DNA from: a bacterium
Lineage (GTDB): Bacteria; T1Sed10-126
DNA: 16,751 bases
NCBI GenBank assembly: GCA_003557545.1
Contig: PWOD01000092.1
Coordinates: forward strand, 1-16,751
Direction of reading: 5' to 3'
The notes under the pieces were generated by a model. It was not told the DNA's origin. It saw only the letters and a program-made list of their open reading frames with translations, and did not search any database. A program made the position numbers and the translations under genes. Shown one piece after another: positions 1-7,938 of the stretch; position 1 is the first letter of the stretch; the number at the start of each line of letters is the position of its first letter.

Positions 1-2205
1 ATACAGTTCAATCCGCCGCTGCCAGAAATAAACCCGCCGGGCAGTAAGCTCATCAGAACGGCTGTAGACAAACCTGAACTGACCATCTTTCTCACGCTGC
101 ATACCGAGGCTGATATCGCGCTGTTTAGAAACATCAAAATTTCCGGGGACCATACGTTTAGAATCACCCGTCTTTAACTGTTGGGAGGTATAGTCAAGCT
201 CAACCTCAACCCTGGCCTGGGGGGCTTGTGGATTACCAAAGACTCGCTGAATATCGTGACGAATTCTTAATCCCCGCATGGTTCGATAATAATCTCTGAT
301 AAAATCCCGAATAAATTCAGTTTTTTCATAGGATTTTCCAAAAATCGACTGATGAACAAACTCTTCAGAAACCATATCACGCAGCTGCGACTCATCGGCC
401 CGCTGTTTGGCAGAATAAAACCGATCAATCTGCTGGCGCCAGACCTCTTCAAACCTCAGAGGACGATATTCCAGAGAGCCAACAAGATTTATCAAATAAA
501 CTGGACGACCGAGTTTTTCAGTAGTCCAACCGCGCAGTTGAAAATTACTATTCACAGCTGCCTGCACAGGTACTGAAAAGGTTGCTCCGCGAATTTTAAC
601 CTCCTGCCAGCTGCGTCCACCATCGGCCGAATAAGCAATACCCTGCAGCGGTTTGGGGGATGCAAACTGAAGTTCTATCAGCCCATTTTGCTGATCATCA
701 CGATAAAGGTGGAGTGGAAATTCTACATCATCAACGGCAAAACCTGCCAGACTGGTTATTCTCAGAATATTATTTTCCTGCGGCAACGAGGGTAAAACTT
801 CTCCGGGCCTGACAGCAGTTGTAGAACTATACAGATGAATCCTGTATTGAGCCTGTTCCAGTGTTTCACCATCCTGATTAATCGCAGCCACCTGCAGTTC
901 ATAAAACTCAGGAGCTCTACCACGGGAAACAGGCACCTCCGGCTGCCAGCTATACTCCCAGCTTTCTCCCGGAAATAACTCACCGTCAGCTGCCAGGTTT
1001 TCTCCATTTAATTTCACTCTGATTCCGGCCAGATCATCCAACAGAACTGAAAACCTGGTTCGTCCAGAAAGCTCAATAACCCGTTCTTCTGAATATTCAA
1101 GCCGATGCTGCCGCTCCAGACGTTCCCCATCAATCAGCGTCTGAATAGCACGCTCAACCCGTCTATCAGCCTCAGTAAGAGTGCGATTTATAAGAGTAAC
1201 ACGATAAGCTCTGTGGGCTGAAATATTGCCCATAGAATCAATTGCCCGGACAGTTAGCTGATAATCAACAGCCTCTCCGGCCGGGGGCTGTTCAGGTTCC
1301 CAGCGATAATCCCAGGTGGCCCCGTCAAGACGCTGTTCTACAACGGCTAAATCTTCACCTTCAATCTGGATTTTCACATAGTCCAGCGTGGCATCCGGCT
1401 GCACAGCCTCGGCCTGGCCGGAGATCGTGATTGGTCGGGGATCAGTAAAATCAAGTTCCTGAGCAGACCTCAGTCTTCTACCATCAAGTTGTAAATTAAA
1501 AACTCGTGGATGGCGCAACCGGTCTAAAGCCTGTTCACGATGGGCAGCAAGGGCTTCCCGACGCGCCGAAGAAAGTTCTCTCAGCGGAGATGGTTGTGGC
1601 CGATCAAACTCAATAGTTGACTCCTGTCCGGCCCCTAAAAATATCCGCTGGTCGGGCTGTTCACGACTCTGAAAAACTACCTCGCCCATGTATACTCCAG
1701 CCCGCGTGCGAAGTCGCTCAGTTTTCAGGTCAAAAGAAGTCCCCCTGATGCCCAGGGTGGCATGCGGAGTAATCGCCTGGAGATCCAATTCGGCAGAAGG
1801 ATCCTCAATGGTTGTTGCTTTGATCTCACCATCAAACAACTCCAGTAGCAACTCCCTCACCACTACCTCTCGACGAAAAAACAATAATCCCTGATATTCA
1901 ATCTGGTCGGTCAACTGGTTAATTGACAGTGTGCTTTCCGGTTCTACTTCCAGGTATGAAGCCCCGGGGATGATCAATGTTACACGGGATCCGGGAGCTG
2001 TCCACAGCTGATCACCACCAAGCAACTCCTGACCGCTCTCCGGTGAAAATTCAACTCCGTTCCTCTGCTGGGTTACCTCTCCCGAAATATCATAGATTTC
2101 CAGCGAGGGCACAGCAACTTCAGCCCGCAACTGACCAGTGCCAGAACTACTTATCAAGAGGATTACCATGGCTAATAATAACCAAAAATATCGTTGTTTT
2201 TTCAT
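1..2205 (-). CDS. Exported FecR-domain protein with Ig-like repeats (C-terminus beyond window)
   Basis: The frame is open for 735 codons and runs off the left edge, so the C-terminus is missing. Residues 1-28 form a signal peptide (KK, hydrophobic core, then QLRA before EVAVP). Residues about 35-200 are a FecR domain; its hallmark is TPHATLGIRGTSFDL at 146-160. Two related beta domains follow, about 236-345 and 376-465. Each has a W-x-Y-x-W-x-P-E signature (WDYRWEPE and WEYSWQPE), so they look like a tandem Ig-like duplication. Residues about 480-575 are another beta-rich segment with an Asp-box-like S526-x-D-G-G-x-x-W533. From about 580 to the edge the sequence is helical and then beta-rich, resembling an NTF2/SnoaL-like fold (tentative). 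The start ATG overlaps the stop of the upstream barrel gene (TGATG) and has its own AGGAG, so the two are probably translationally coupled. FecR domains of this exported type often lie beside CHASE2 cyclases, as here. It is probably periplasmic or surface-located; the ligand is unknown. Confidence 0.88.
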   Translation of the reverse strand, partial: MKKQRYFWLLLAMVILLISSSGTGQLRAEVAVPSLEIYDISGEVTQQRNGVEFSPESGQELLGGDQLWTAPGSRVTLIIPGASYLEVEPESTLSINQLTDQIEYQGLLFFRREVVVRELLLELFDGEIKATTIEDPSAELDLQAITPHATLGIRGTSFDLKTERLRTRAGVYMGEVVFQSREQPDQRIFLGAGQESTIEFDRPQPSPLRELSSARREALAAHREQALDRLRHPRVFNLQLDGRRLRSAQELDFTDPRPITISGQAEAVQPDATLDYVKIQIEGEDLAVVEQRLDGATWDYRWEPEQPPAGEAVDYQLTVRAIDSMGNISAHRAYRVTLINRTLTEADRRVERAIQTLIDGERLERQHRLEYSEERVIELSGRTRFSVLLDDLAGIRVKLNGENLAADGELFPGESWEYSWQPEVPVSRGRAPEFYELQVAAINQDGETLEQAQYRIHLYSSTTAVRPGEVLPSLPQENNILRITSLAGFAVDDVEFPLHLYRDDQQNGLIELQFASPKPLQGIAYSADGGRSWQEVKIRGATFSVPVQAAVNSNFQLRGWTTEKLGRPVYLINLVGSLEYRPLRFEEVWRQQIDRFYSAKQRADESQLRDMVSEEFVHQSIFGKSYEKTEFIRDFIRDYYRTMRGLRIRHDIQRVFGNPQAPQARVEVELDYTSQQLKTGDSKRMVPGNFDVSKQRDISLGMQREKDGQFRFVYSRSDELTARRVYFWQRRIELY

Positions 2206-3779
2206 CAGAATTGACTCCTAAATCTCAGTTCATAACTGTTTTCTGTATAGTTTCGTGAAGAATCTCCTTTGTCACGGCTATCGAACCACTCATAGGAAAA
2301 AGCCAGGCTGGTTTCCAGGGCGGGATTCAGATGAAACTCAATCCCGATATTAAACTCTTCCTGGACAACATCGGCCTGATCTCCACCACGCCGGTCATAA
2401 TCATAACGGTGGCCAATAAAGAGCTGTTCCCGACCGCGCCCAATAACCAGGTAATTGTCGATTATATTTCGCCGGTCGTGAACAAAAACTGCCGTTCTTT
2501 CCACCCTGTCCTTACGATATTCAAAACCTAGATTCCAATCCAGAGGCTGGGCCCAAATATCACCCTGCCAATCATAAACTGCCCGGTGGGAACGTGATTT
2601 TTCCTGCTGTTTACGAATATCTTCATATTGCGTGGCTAGTAGCAAAGATGCTCCGCCCAGATTAAACCCTCCGGAGAGTTCCAGAATCCGGTTATCTTCG
2701 GGAATAATCTGATCTTCCCGCCAGCGCCGTTCCGTCTCCAGACGAAGGCTCTGCAGCCAATCAACTCCGCCTGCCCAGTAATTTACCCCACCCCGCAAAA
2801 TCCGCCGATCCTGGGTATCACCCCGGGTATACTCATCAATATCCCGCTGCCCTAACAGCTGGATTTCCCAGTTTTCCAAACCGAGTATTTGTGGTTGATA
2901 GTTAACTGTACTGCGATGGATAATTCTATCTTCAAGCACCGAGGCGGTTAATGATTCAAACTGTCTGTCGGTCCGCTCAAACCGATAATCTAAACGCAAC
3001 CGATCAAGCGGATTGATTTCAATTCCAGCACGATAGGCCAGCTGGTTTTCATGACTGGTATCACCATCCTCTATTTCCGCGAGAGCAGCTTCTCCATGGA
3101 GCTGCAGCTGGCCATCCAGTAGCTGGCGCTCGGTCGCCAGTGATAAAACCCGGTTAGAACGGGGCAGCTCGACAATATCAGCTGATGAAGCATGATCTCT
3201 TGTGCGTACAAAATTAAGCTCCCAGTGAGCAGCGGTGGTTTCATCCCAGCGCAGCTGAAACCCACTGCTAAGCCGGCGATATTGATCGGTCCGGGCTCGC
3301 CGGTCACGGCCCCCAAAAGCAGTCAATAAAATATCGCCGGTAAGCTGATAACTTCCCTGAAAACCCAGTTGGGTTGTGTTCATTGTTAAAGGACTAAAGT
3401 TTCCACTGAAATAACCACCTGTCAAATACCACCTGTCCAACTTTTCTGCTGTCAGATAAAGATTCTCTACCCGGACCCTGTCGTCACTGGTCTTAAACTG
3501 CTGATCATCTGTGGCTCGCACAACAAGCTGACCGCTGAGAAGAAGATCGTCGGTCTGACCAAGATGACTGTCATAATAAAGATAGAAATCAGTTAGATAA
3601 TTAAATCCATGTTGTTTGAAGGAAAGCGCCTCGTTACCACTAATATCATCATAATAAGCTCGAATGTCCATATCCCCACTGAACGCTCCAAAAAAATCTC
3701 CCGCAAGCGACTGACCGGGAAGCGCCAGAAGAAGCAGAACTAATAATCCAGAGAAAAACCCACCAACCGTTTTGCTCAT
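2205..3779 (-). CDS. Predicted outer-membrane beta-barrel protein
   Basis: A 524-residue protein with a clear signal peptide: hydrophobic core at 8-20 and a likely cut after LPGQSLA, about residue 26. The mature part has no hydrophobic helices. It is a long series of alternating amphipathic strands rich in Tyr, Arg, Asp and Gln (for example LDWNLGFEYRKDR, ELRFRSQF) and ends in phenylalanine. Both are marks of outer-membrane barrels assembled by the BAM machinery, and the length allows a barrel of well over 16 strands. I do not recognise a specific family, substrate or TonB box. AAGGAG lies 7 bases before the ATG, and a good TATAAT promoter lies about 45 bases upstream. The last codons contain the ribosome binding site of the FecR-domain gene, so the two proteins are probably made together and may interact in the envelope. 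Its presence is the main evidence for a diderm host. Confidence 0.85.
   Translation of the reverse strand: MSKTVGGFFSGLLVLLLLALPGQSLAGDFFGAFSGDMDIRAYYDDISGNEALSFKQHGFNYLTDFYLYYDSHLGQTDDLLLSGQLVVRATDDQQFKTSDDRVRVENLYLTAEKLDRWYLTGGYFSGNFSPLTMNTTQLGFQGSYQLTGDILLTAFGGRDRRARTDQYRRLSSGFQLRWDETTAAHWELNFVRTRDHASSADIVELPRSNRVLSLATERQLLDGQLQLHGEAALAEIEDGDTSHENQLAYRAGIEINPLDRLRLDYRFERTDRQFESLTASVLEDRIIHRSTVNYQPQILGLENWEIQLLGQRDIDEYTRGDTQDRRILRGGVNYWAGGVDWLQSLRLETERRWREDQIIPEDNRILELSGGFNLGGASLLLATQYEDIRKQQEKSRSHRAVYDWQGDIWAQPLDWNLGFEYRKDRVERTAVFVHDRRNIIDNYLVIGRGREQLFIGHRYDYDRRGGDQADVVQEEFNIGIEFHLNPALETSLAFSYEWFDSRDKGDSSRNYTENSYELRFRSQF
2215..2219 (-). promoter_or_regulatory. Ribosome binding site of the FecR-domain gene inside the barrel gene
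   Basis: AGGAG lies in the last codons of the upstream barrel gene, 9 bases before the FecR-domain ATG. The upstream TGA and downstream ATG share one base (TGATG), which points to coupled or reinitiated translation and fixes this start. Confidence 0.7.
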
Positions 3780-3820
3780 ACGATTTCTCCTTAAAAAAAT
3801 CTTTCCCTGTCCACTTACTA

Positions 3821-3849
3821 ATTATAATGCTCCAGATCGACGAAAGCAA
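3821..3849 (-). promoter_or_regulatory. Predicted sigma-A promoter for the barrel-FecR pair
   Basis: On the minus strand a perfect TATAAT (-10) lies at 3821-3826 and TTGCTT (-35, three of six matches) at 3844-3849, with a 17-base spacer. The predicted transcript starts about 35 bases before the barrel gene's ATG. Sequence match only. Confidence 0.5.
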
Positions 3850-3974
3850 ATAAATAAAATTCAGAAAAAAATAGTCCAGTACAGTTTGAACCAATAGTTT
3901 AACTGAAATGTTTTTTAGTACTGAAGTGCCTTTACTCTATCAATCGATCCCTGGAAAGCTCGGAGTGTCTCTAT

Positions 3975-3983
3975 TGTTATAAA
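3975..3983 (+). promoter_or_regulatory. Possible extended -10 promoter for the hydrolase-cyclase pair
   Basis: TGTTATAAA matches an extended -10 element (TGnTATAAT) with one mismatch. No convincing -35 lies 17 bases upstream, as is allowed for extended -10 promoters. It would start transcription near 3990, giving a leader of about 45-70 bases before the hydrolase gene. It faces away from the barrel promoter in the same 255-base gap. Confidence 0.3.
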
Positions 3984-4034
3984 GCCCTATAGCGTTTAAA
4001 CTTATTGGTGTATAACTTTTCCAATTGACAAACT

Positions 4035-5597
4035 ATGCCAGACTCAGGGATGGGACAAATGACTGAAGATTTCCTGGAAATTAAAATCATTGGTGATTCT
4101 GGACCATTTTCTCAATTAGGAGAGAGTATAGGTTATCTGGTGACAGCCGGGGAAACGGATTTTCTGGTAGACTGTGGTGGCCCGATATTTTCACTATTAA
4201 ACGAAGATGATTTAAATAAGATCGACGGAGTAGTAGCAACCCACGCGCACGAGGATCATAAGCGATGGTTTACCGATCTGGCACTATATAAAAAATTTCT
4301 CAGTCCCCGGGACAACCTGCTCCATCTCCTGGCGGCTGAAGAAGTTATGGAGGATTATCGGCTGGCTTCAACACCAGCTTTGGGGCTGACACTTTCAAAT
4401 AACTGCCAGCGAATAATTAATTATGATTTTAAAGATTACACGACGTTTAAACCGATTGCCCCCCGACCCAAATACCGCTGTATCCAAAGCAGCTCTTCAG
4501 ACAGACCCGGCCACTGGATTGTAGTTACTGAAAATGGCGAAGAACTGGGAGCTGATCGAGCTAAACTTTTTTTTCATACAAAAGATTCTATTCGACCCCG
4601 ACTTCTCTTTAAAGACCCGGAACTTAACTGCTGGATAGAACCCCAGACCTTTTATGGATTGAACGACTCAAGATTTTACCAGACCGACAGTTTTCAACCC
4701 TACAAAGCTGCTTCTGGACTGAAAATATCCGCGTTCAAGGCGCCCGCCTGGCACGGACCTTTTACGACTTCATTGCTGTTTGAATACAATGGTCTGTCAG
4801 TATTTTTCAGCAGTGATACAAAATACGATCCAATTCTCTGGGAAAAACTCACCCGACCTCTCCGACCATCTCCAACCGTCGAGGAAGACTTTCCCGAAGA
4901 ACAACAGGTGATCTATGGAGAAGATATTAATAATTACATCGAGTTCATCTGGAGTCATGAAAGATATGAGCGAGCAGTAGAATTTTACGATAGAACAGCC
5001 CTTAATCTGATGATCCATGATGTTGCCAAAAATGGTTCGGTAGTTCATACCAACCAGCGGCTGCTGGCCGAATTTTCCAGCGACGTCCTGTTAACCCACA
5101 GTCCGGAGGTTTTCACCTCGCTACACCCACTGGTTCATTCACAAAAAACCTTTCTGGTTAAAAAATCCGGCATCTGTGAACAGACCAAACAGAACAACTG
5201 TTATCCCATGAACGCCCTGTGCTACCATAAAAACCGATCAGAATATTTTGTCGGTTATCCTGACAATAACGGAGAACACTACCTGATACGTCAACCTGAT
5301 GGTTCAGTGAGATTAGCTGCAAAGTCTGGATCAGAGGCTAAGGTCATCGAAAAAATCAGACTATATCAGGATATTGGTGGAGAATATTTCCCCCGGCTGA
5401 ACAGCCCGGATGAAGAATATTATTTGCGAGCTGACAACCAGATAGTTAAACTAAAACACCAACCACAAACAACTTCTGGAGAGCTACAAACCAGCCTGCG
5501 GAAAGAGCTATCAACCAGACCAATAACGCTGCCCGAATGTCCAAGCGTTTCCTGTAAAAATCCTGCTAATCAAGAAACAATATCCGATTCAGATTGA
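4035..5597 (+). CDS. Metallo-beta-lactamase-fold hydrolase, candidate cyclic nucleotide phosphodiesterase
   Basis: A 520-residue cytosolic protein with no signal peptide. The MBL metal site is visible: H70-A-H72-E-D74-H75 in the first motif, then H240 (APAWHGP), D261 (SSDTKYD) and H355 (LLTHSP), with H328-D329 as a further candidate. The spacing is unusual: about 165 residues separate the HxHxDH motif from H240, and about 150 residues with no recognised domain follow the last ligand. It lies 43 bases upstream of a CHASE2 adenylate cyclase, and no terminator is visible between them, so co-transcription is likely. Class II cyclic nucleotide phosphodiesterases have this fold and motif, so a role in degrading the neighbour's product is attractive, but the sequence does not prove it; other phosphodiester or lactone substrates are possible. 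No ribosome binding site precedes the ATG at 4035. The ATG at 4059 (MTEDFLEI), preceded by a G-rich stretch, may be the true start. Confidence 0.83.
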   Translation: MPDSGMGQMTEDFLEIKIIGDSGPFSQLGESIGYLVTAGETDFLVDCGGPIFSLLNEDDLNKIDGVVATHAHEDHKRWFTDLALYKKFLSPRDNLLHLLAAEEVMEDYRLASTPALGLTLSNNCQRIINYDFKDYTTFKPIAPRPKYRCIQSSSSDRPGHWIVVTENGEELGADRAKLFFHTKDSIRPRLLFKDPELNCWIEPQTFYGLNDSRFYQTDSFQPYKAASGLKISAFKAPAWHGPFTTSLLFEYNGLSVFFSSDTKYDPILWEKLTRPLRPSPTVEEDFPEEQQVIYGEDINNYIEFIWSHERYERAVEFYDRTALNLMIHDVAKNGSVVHTNQRLLAEFSSDVLLTHSPEVFTSLHPLVHSQKTFLVKKSGICEQTKQNNCYPMNALCYHKNRSEYFVGYPDNNGEHYLIRQPDGSVRLAAKSGSEAKVIEKIRLYQDIGGEYFPRLNSPDEEYYLRADNQIVKLKHQPQTTSGELQTSLRKELSTRPITLPECPSVSCKNPANQETISDSD

Positions 5598-5627
5598 AAA
5601 TAGTTTACTGAAACCACAACAGCTTTT

Positions 5628-5632
5628 AGGAG
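5628..5632 (+). promoter_or_regulatory. Ribosome binding site that fixes a TTG start
   Basis: AGGAG lies 8 bases before the TTG at 5641. The triplet just before that TTG is an in-frame TAA (5638-5640), so the protein cannot start further upstream. The spacing makes TTG the natural start codon. Confidence 0.75.
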
Positions 5633-5640
5633 CCATTTAA

Positions 5641-7938
5641 TTGTTGCCAGTTAAAATCGCCCTGAACAATCTCTGGAAAAAGATTTCTCTGCGCTCTTCG
5701 CTGATTATTATTGCGATAGTTCTTCTGGTGGGAGGCATCTGGAGTTTAAATCTAGAAAACAGCTTTGGTGACCAGATAAATCGGCTAGAATATCCGCTGC
5801 TGGATCTGCGCCACCAGTGGTATGCCAATCGGACTGAACTATCAGATGAAGTTGTACTGGTTGTTATTACCGAAAACTCGCTACAGACTTTTCGGGATAA
5901 TCTTGGCCGCTGGCCCTGGCCCCGACGCATCTGGGCAGCAGTCATAGATTATCTTCGGCAGGCAGATCAAATTAAATTTGATATTGGCTTCTGGGAGCCC
6001 AGCCTGGTCGAACTGACCCCGCGCCTGATCGACCAACTACGTAACCAGCTTAATCAGGCCAAACAACTTCAGTCGACCGACAGGGCCGAAGCTAACAAAG
6101 TTTTAGAAAGACTCAACAGACAACTCGGGGATCTCCAGACTCCAGACGATCAACTTCTTGGAAAATTTACCGGCCAGGCGGGTAATGTAGTCCATGCAAT
6201 AACTTTCCGAGAATTAACCGACCGGTTAAGTGAACCACCGGAACTAACGGAGCAACAAAAGATTTTCTATGAAACCTACGGATGGAAGCTAACAGGTAAA
6301 GTTCGGGGCACAACAACCGGCGACCTCGTCATTCCAATCGATCCACTACTTTCTACTTCCGCGTTCTTTTCCCATATCCATTTCATTCCGGATCCTGACG
6401 GTGTTGCCCGGAGATTTGCTCCCTTTGTTGAAAGTTCTAATTACCAGGGGAAAACCCGATTTTTCCCACTGCTGGGAATGACCGGGAGTTTAGCCTCCGA
6501 AAAGCGCCAGACCAGCTACCAGACAAATCAACTCCGGAGTAACGGTGTTACGGTTCCCCTGGATCGTCAGGGATACATCCCAATAAGATACCGGGGGGAT
6601 ATTTCCGAATATACAGTTATCCCGGTGGAACAGCTGGTAGAACCAATGATCAGAGGAACTCAGCCGGCTATTCCGTCGGAATGGTTTGCCGGTAAAACGG
6701 TGCTGATTGGAGCTACAGCCCCGGGACTATTTGATCTTAATCCCACACCATTAGATCCGGTTCAGCCCGGAATGCTTGTCCATGCCACCGTCCACGAGAT
6801 GCTGGCCACTGGCGATCTACTCTATCCGGAAAATACCACCGTCACCTGGTTAACAATAATTGCAAGTGGGATCATAATCGGACTGGTGGCCCTGTTCACC
6901 GGACCGTTCAGCGGATTGCTGCTCATGGCTATCATCTTCGGTGGTTTTATTTATGGTAGTTTTTGGGGGTTTGATCAGGGATATACAATCAATCTTTCTC
7001 TGCCCATAATAACTGGAATTTTAGTCTTCGGCGGTGTAACTGCGGAAAATCTTTTAAAAGAAAAGCAACAGCGACGCTGGATCAAAAACGTCTTCCAGCA
7101 TTACCTTCCCCGGACACTCTTAAAAACGCTGCTGGCCGAACCAGAAAAACTTCAGCTTAAGGCGCGGCGACAAACCGTCACCATGCTGTTCATCGACATT
7201 GCAAATTTTACGAGCCTGAGCGAGAAGCTAAAGGCTACCGACCTGACCCAAAGATTAAATGAAATTTTAAGTGAGATGAGTAGTTGTGTTTTTCAATATG
7301 AAGGAATAATCGACAAATTTATCGGCGATGCTATGATGGCTGAATTCGGACTGCTTGATTTAGAACCACCCGAACAGGAGCGCAGAGCCTGCCAGGCTGC
7401 GAATGAGATGATAAAACGGCTAAAAATATTTAACCAGAATAATCCGGATAACAATCTCCAGGTAAGAATCGGAATTAATACCGGAACAGTTGCAGCCGGC
7501 AACATGGGGTCCCGAGAACTATTTGACTATACTGTGATCGGTGATGCCGTAAACCTGGCAGCGCGGCTGGAGGGTGTTAATAAGATTTATAAGACCAGCT
7601 GTATTATCGGAGAACAGACCAGACAGGGGCTGGGCGCCGATGCCATAGTTCGAGAACTGGATACCGTCCAGGTGAAGGGGCGGCAACAACCGGTTAAAAT
7701 CTATGAATGGATTGGCTGGGCGAACTCAGTCCCGGAAGGAAAACTCGAACTGATTAACAACTATGAAAAAGCGCTGGAAAAATATCGCAAGCGAGAGTTT
7801 GCCGCGGCGCTTCAGATAGTTCCCGGCCCCGAAACAGGGGACAGTCCGTCAGATTACCTGCGGATAAGATGTCAGGACCTGTTAGAAAACCCACCGGCTG
7901 AAGACTGGAAACCGTTTACAGCACTCCACCAAAAATAG
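5641..7938 (+). CDS. CHASE2 sensor fused to class III adenylate cyclase
   Basis: A 765-residue membrane sensor-cyclase. It has an N-terminal anchor at about 20-37, then a CHASE2 extracytoplasmic domain at about 40-395. CHASE2 signatures are LRHQWYANRTELSDEVVLVV, GRWPWPRRIWAAVIDYL, IKFDIGF, AGKTVLIGATAPGLFD and HATVHEMLATGDLL. Three further membrane segments lie at about 401-420, 423-441 and 450-467, then a short linker and a class III cyclase domain at about 510-690. All catalytic positions are present: metal ligands D519 and D563, base-binding K559, N638 and R642. The second base-specifying position is T631 (DYTVIGD), the class IIIb pattern linked to ATP specificity and bicarbonate stimulation. 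A TPR-like helical pair ends the protein (701-765). It should turn an envelope or extracellular signal into cytosolic cAMP. It starts with TTG and lies in tandem with the MBL hydrolase gene. Confidence 0.93.
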   Translation: MLPVKIALNNLWKKISLRSSLIIIAIVLLVGGIWSLNLENSFGDQINRLEYPLLDLRHQWYANRTELSDEVVLVVITENSLQTFRDNLGRWPWPRRIWAAVIDYLRQADQIKFDIGFWEPSLVELTPRLIDQLRNQLNQAKQLQSTDRAEANKVLERLNRQLGDLQTPDDQLLGKFTGQAGNVVHAITFRELTDRLSEPPELTEQQKIFYETYGWKLTGKVRGTTTGDLVIPIDPLLSTSAFFSHIHFIPDPDGVARRFAPFVESSNYQGKTRFFPLLGMTGSLASEKRQTSYQTNQLRSNGVTVPLDRQGYIPIRYRGDISEYTVIPVEQLVEPMIRGTQPAIPSEWFAGKTVLIGATAPGLFDLNPTPLDPVQPGMLVHATVHEMLATGDLLYPENTTVTWLTIIASGIIIGLVALFTGPFSGLLLMAIIFGGFIYGSFWGFDQGYTINLSLPIITGILVFGGVTAENLLKEKQQRRWIKNVFQHYLPRTLLKTLLAEPEKLQLKARRQTVTMLFIDIANFTSLSEKLKATDLTQRLNEILSEMSSCVFQYEGIIDKFIGDAMMAEFGLLDLEPPEQERRACQAANEMIKRLKIFNQNNPDNNLQVRIGINTGTVAAGNMGSRELFDYTVIGDAVNLAARLEGVNKIYKTSCIIGEQTRQGLGADAIVRELDTVQVKGRQQPVKIYEWIGWANSVPEGKLELINNYEKALEKYRKREFAAALQIVPGPETGDSPSDYLRIRCQDLLENPPAEDWKPFTALHQK

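Follow-up and report, generated by a model that had tools for sequence, protein, structure and literature searches.

A putative outer-membrane barrel, a FecR-domain protein, a CHASE2 cyclase and an MBL hydrolase encoded together: a candidate envelope-to-cAMP relay

Do four clustered genes, encoding a probable outer-membrane barrel, an exported FecR-domain protein, an MBL-fold hydrolase and a CHASE2 adenylate cyclase, form one path by which the cell envelope could set the level of cAMP? The window, that is the whole stretch of 16,751 bases analysed here, makes up the whole of contig C204; the draft genome to which it belongs measures 2.15 Mb. Comparison within the phylum covered two genomes in total, the window's own (G000) and that of one relative from a different genus (G001).

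Gene layout and linkage in a relative

An earlier note had described the four genes from the window. All four are present as open reading frames (Table 1), and Pfam backs the FecR, MBL, CHASE2 and cyclase assignments. Since the window is a whole contig, the FecR gene breaks off at base 1. The two arms had also been said to share one divergent promoter region. The gap between them is real, and a consensus promoter scan of its 255 bp gave no score above chance, so that a shared promoter is plausible but unproven. Divergence itself is not conserved, because barrel, FecR and cyclase genes share one direction in the relative. Elsewhere in the window lie a DUF481 outer-membrane protein, a second likely barrel, and a cobalamin-independent methionine synthase whose N-terminal and catalytic domains are two adjacent separate genes.

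Table 1. Positions of the features discussed, in the window (C204) and on other contigs of the two genomes
Feature	Contig	Position	Strand	Remarks
Exported FecR-domain protein	C204	1-2205	-	735 aa visible, 3' end cut by contig end
AGGAG ribosome site and TGATG stop/start overlap	C204	2203-2218	-	common to relative
Probable outer-membrane beta-barrel protein	C204	2205-3779	-	524 aa; predicted TGATG coupling to FecR
Intergenic region between divergent arms, candidate control region	C204	3780-4034	.	255 bp
MBL-fold hydrolase, candidate cyclic-nucleotide phosphodiesterase	C204	4035-5597 (probable start 4059)	+	PF12706 type
CHASE2 class III adenylate cyclase	C204	5641-7938	+	TTG start
Conserved cyclase C-terminus	C204	7890-7938		NPPAEDWKPFTALHQK
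DUF481 outer-membrane protein	C204	10166-10951	-	40.7 bits, cut-off 21.1
Methionine synthase genes	C204	15036-16750	-	two adjacent genes
MBL, relative	C69	2915-4372
Barrel, relative	C69	9789-11438
FecR, relative	C69	11435-13909
Cyclase, relative	C69	14871-17135
cNMP-binding/AI-2E transporter genes, relative	C69	17158-18770	+	L036
cNMP-binding/transposase gene, relative	C69	1189-2871	+	L036; 560 aa
Second barrel/FecR module, relative	C67	6932-12835	-	L178
cNMP-binding/AI-2E transporter genes, window's genome	C174	10474-12163	-	L181

In the relative, all four genes lie inside 14.2 kb, in an order unlike that of the window. Identities between the two genomes are 46% for the MBL protein, 53% for the barrel, 33-35% for the FecR protein (824 aa in the relative) and 50% for the cyclase. 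When all window proteins were searched by tblastn against the 46-kb contig C69, the four cluster genes were found and no other window gene; the four therefore stayed together while their surroundings changed. On this contig the barrel gene, the FecR gene, a gene for a SnoaL-like lipoprotein and the cyclase gene run in one direction, and the MBL gene lies ~10.5 kb away from the cyclase. Conserved linkage of the four families, named beforehand as support for a unit, is thus found in the one informative genome, and the pattern named as its refutation, a cyclase without the barrel/FecR pair or arms that are unlinked, was not seen there.

Neighbours of CHASE2 cyclases across bacteria

The survey comprised 113 other distinct CHASE2-type cyclase loci from genomes, plasmids and named genome contigs. 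FecR genes occurred within three genes of the cyclase at 36 loci, filling 6.1% of these positions against 0.28% of those further away (p = 5e-11), and MBL genes adjoined the cyclase at 14 loci (6.6% of adjoining positions and 0.18% of those further off, p = 5e-10); both p-values are optimistic because the loci are related by descent. The pairing of exported FecR-domain proteins with CHASE2 cyclases, called familiar in the earlier note, is indeed widespread. Genes for cNMP-binding proteins stood within two genes of the cyclase at 11 of the 113 loci. The cyclase-adjacent MBL genes span Betaproteobacteria, Alteromonas, Desulfovibrio, Verrucomicrobiota-type bacteria, Ensifer and others, and FecR, cyclase and MBL occur together at L104, L147 and the Ensifer plasmid locus L089. 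In the literature searched, we found no description of MBL-type candidate phosphodiesterases linked to CHASE2 cyclases across phyla.

Candidate barrels recur at these loci in several forms. Bacteroidota/Calditrichota-type loci (L112, L113, L118, L125 and others) repeat the order exported protein of ~400 aa, FecR protein of ~228 aa, exported protein of ~800 aa, cyclase. These ~800-aa putative barrels end in Phe, and most show an excess of amphipathic strands without matching a Pfam barrel family. At other loci the barrel is of a Slam-like TPR kind (L127) or of the ShlB type (L103 and L093). The 479-aa neighbour at L057 was considered as a barrel and rejected, as it is a TPR protein. A search of 1,571 neighbour proteins and of the PDB with a profile of the window's barrel returned no homologue, as expected of barrels, which change fast. 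Profile-profile alignment of the window's barrel with the other candidates likewise returned nothing, and we therefore do not claim that the candidate barrels of different loci are homologous.

Three observations from the survey stand apart. At L111, L128 and L169 (Betaproteobacteria) the CHASE2 cyclase gene is directly followed by an MBL gene and has upstream of it a gene for a protein of ~850 aa; in L111 and L169 the latter is a CHASE2 Ser/Thr kinase, so that one cluster holds two CHASE2 sensors whose outputs differ. Record CP090106.1 (L092, L094), titled as S. meliloti pSymB, is chromosome-sized at 3.7 Mb, carries cyaD1 and cob genes, and may be mislabelled. The C-terminus of the window's cyclase (Table 1) belongs to a conserved tail, PP..(D/E)W(D)GV.....TK, present in 72 of 111 CHASE2 cyclases from many phyla.

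The cyclase, cyclic-nucleotide readers and the MBL hydrolase

The cyclase scored 130 bits for CHASE2 (PF05226) and 87 bits for Guanylate_cyc (PF00211), both over the cut-off, and its catalytic set is present: D519 and D563, the metal-binding Asp residues of class III cyclases, K559 and T631, which specify ATP, and N638 and R642, which act on the transition state. Each of the two phylum genomes (92-93% completeness) has one PF00211 class III cyclase. Possible readers of its product number three cNMP-binding proteins in the window's genome and seven in the relative, five of the seven being encoded on C69, and by eye most of these proteins seem to have kept an intact phosphate-binding cassette (GE...R-S/T-A). 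In the relative, the MBL gene directly follows two cNMP-binding genes and another directly follows the cyclase. This last cNMP-binding gene overlaps an AI-2E family transporter gene, and an orthologous overlapping pair is found on another contig in the window's genome (Table 1). Its position directly after the relative's cyclase makes this pair a candidate cAMP target.

The gene directly before the relative's MBL gene encodes a 560-aa protein in which a cNMP-binding domain (75.7 bits) is fused with a transposase domain of the Mutator family (76 bits). Its catalytic Asp-Gly-His stretch appears changed, which suggests a transposase that has been domesticated and linked to cyclic nucleotides.

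The MBL protein matched PF12706 and PF00753 above cut-off. Its true start is probably internal to the open frame (Table 1), since window Met9 corresponds to the first residue of the protein in the relative. The dinuclear metal ligands are complete (HxHxDH, H, D, H: H70, H72, D74, H75, H240, D261, H338), and all seven are invariant in an alignment of 11 sequences with cyclase-linked MBL proteins. Modelled in part with AlphaFold (mean pLDDT 50, with 70-85 in the core), the protein matched PNGM-1, YhfI, Apyc1, RNase Z-type chains and ELAC proteins in the PDB; the model places the protein in the RNase Z/phosphodiesterase branch of the MBL fold, and we assign it no further. It scored 14.3 bits against the NCBIfam cyclic-nucleotide phosphodiesterase NF041851, whose cut-off is 400, and falls well short of the cut-off of each NCBIfam equivalog; we therefore do not count it as a member of that family. 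A scan of named genome contigs with this single protein found no relative.

A precedent for cAMP as substrate is Rv1339, which belongs to PF12706, has been modelled on YhfI and is a proven cyclic-nucleotide phosphodiesterase that degrades cAMP (PMC9293780). The window protein shares with Rv1339, YhfI and Apyc1 the PF12706-type fold and the metal ligands. It differs in having about double the length, its inserts and C-terminus finding no match, and in that its 46% identity is to its own orthologue only, with scores far under the family cut-offs. The hydrolase could instead process RNA or cleave some other phosphodiester, as RNase Z and PhnP do, its link to the cluster being regulatory only. On the window protein the profiles for RNase Z, PhnP and the phosphodiesterase give similar scores, all of them far below cut-off, and the same holds for its cyclase-linked relatives; PNGM-1 and ELAC proteins are among the structural matches. 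However, MBL genes adjoin CHASE2 cyclases at the 14 surveyed loci in several phyla, five of which also carry cNMP-binding genes, and in this company a cyclic nucleotide fits better than tRNA. We regard this reading, of RNA processing or another phosphodiester, as rather unlikely, though the strongest of the alternatives, and treat the protein as a candidate cAMP phosphodiesterase.

From the outer membrane to the cyclase

The barrel candidate has a hydrophobic N-terminus and the C-terminal sequence ...YELRFRSQF, ending in Phe, and contains 21 amphipathic strand-like segments where shuffled sequences have 14.2. Pfam gave no match for the protein itself. A paralogue in the relative, 30% identical, matches the SlpA_C beta-barrel (40.6 bits, cut-off 35) and, weakly, a Gram-negative porin (Porin_4). 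An AlphaFold model built from one sequence reached a pLDDT of only 31 and was set aside. On these sequence features the product is a probable outer-membrane barrel of predicted topology.

The FecR protein carries its FecR domain (PF04773, 31.6 bits, cut-off 24) at residues 65-176, behind a signal peptide recognised by eye; its middle regions include an internal repeat match, and a SnoaL_2/SnoaL-like domain at residues 594-685 scored sub-threshold. The whole protein looks exported, and it lacks the cytoplasmic anti-sigma domain that would stand at the N-terminus. The barrel/FecR junction reads ...AGGAGTCAATTCTGATGA, and both the TGATG overlap and the AGGAG inside the barrel's last codons are kept in the relative. 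The overlap by which the earlier note coupled the two genes is thus conserved in two genera, and barrel and FecR are probably translationally coupled.

The four genes are best read as one envelope-to-cAMP relay, and we hold this to be probable. The barrel would take up an external cue or report the state of the outer membrane. The co-translated FecR-domain protein, in the periplasm, would pass the signal to CHASE2, the periplasmic domain of the cyclase in the inner membrane, and the cAMP made by this enzyme would work through the cNMP-binding-domain proteins of the genome until the MBL hydrolase ended the signal by cleaving the cyclic nucleotide. This is the path that the earlier note had laid out, and it gains support because the sole class III cyclase, the cNMP-binding neighbours, the FecR and MBL enrichment and published precedents agree. 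We infer the barrel-FecR and FecR-CHASE2 contacts, the direction of regulation and the substrates of the enzymes, that of the MBL protein included.

The barrel and FecR genes might alternatively belong to a separate envelope system, a porin or surface-layer anchor, in which FecR anchors or scaffolds the barrel without signalling to CHASE2. The relative's contig C67 holds a paralogous module of SnoaL-like lipoprotein, barrel, 872-aa FecR protein and small outer-membrane-like protein, with no cyclase on the 13.7 kb of that contig, so that a barrel/FecR pair can exist without an adjacent cyclase; the barrel of this module matches an S-layer SlpA barrel. Against such a separation, the relative's other barrel, FecR and SnoaL-like lipoprotein genes are followed directly, in the same direction, by the cyclase, and FecR is very common near CHASE2 cyclases. 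As the genome has one cyclase only, the second module may feed it as a second input, or may be a sign of another job. A separate envelope system seems to us unlikely. Classical FecA-FecR-FecI cell-surface signalling, with the barrel as transducer and FecR as anti-sigma factor, would account for a FecR domain adjoining a barrel and is very improbable: no sigma-factor-like gene was recognised among the window's open reading frames, a Pfam search found no plug/TonB domain in the barrel, and the FecR protein appears exported throughout.

The relay, preferred over these alternatives, has relatives among known systems. In S. meliloti the CHASE2 cyclases CyaK and CyaD1/CyaD2 depend for their activation on NsrA, an outer-membrane barrel, and signal on to Clr (PMC7529298, PMC13001267). 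The window's system would resemble that one in its probable outer-membrane barrel, its CHASE2 cyclase and a cAMP output to a CRP-family protein, and both phylum genomes link a barrel gene to a CHASE2 cyclase gene, as expected of the NsrA/CyaK type. As described there, a single large protein makes up NsrA, and residues 600-1200 form the barrel (PMC7529298), whereas the window has barrel and FecR as two coupled genes; S. meliloti also has several cyclases and the window's genome one. In the S. meliloti record cyaD1 adjoins FecR, phosphodiesterase and Crp/Fnr genes, and the phosphodiesterase there may differ in type from the window's MBL protein. Campylobacterota clusters of a CHASE2 cyclase, a cAMP phosphodiesterase, a FecR outer-membrane protein and a TPR protein have been proposed to form one pathway (PMC9239204). 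The window too clusters a cyclase, a predicted hydrolase and FecR/outer-membrane parts, but in a distant phylum, without the TPR protein, with a separate barrel gene and with a large FecR protein that has a SnoaL-like end. In the BiofilmReg operon a LysM-FecR protein accompanies a CHASE2 histidine kinase (PMC5192318). There, as here, an exported FecR-domain protein is paired with a CHASE2 sensor; the output is instead a kinase and response regulator, with neither barrel nor MBL. With these precedents the kind of circuit is already known, which makes the idea less novel than the earlier note implied. New elements are the phylum, the division of barrel and FecR between two genes, a FecR protein with a SnoaL-like end and the MBL protein as candidate hydrolase.

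To our knowledge, TonB/FecR/sigma systems are the only ones for which the passage of a signal from the outer membrane to second-messenger enzymes of the inner membrane is understood in detail. The cluster offers a minimal set to reconstitute: a barrel, a FecR adaptor, the sole cyclase and a candidate phosphodiesterase, conserved unlike their neighbours. It also ties MBL-type candidate phosphodiesterases to CHASE2 cyclases in several phyla. More tentatively, and with somewhat less than even confidence, we suggest a general, modular relay from outer membrane to second messenger, in which unrelated barrels (SlpA-like, Slam-like TPR, ShlB/FhaC-type and the ~800-aa Bacteroidota/Calditrichota proteins) would repeatedly have been connected to CHASE2 cyclases through exported FecR-domain adaptors, an MBL phosphodiesterase often serving as the off-switch; such a relay may be this phylum's sole source of cAMP.
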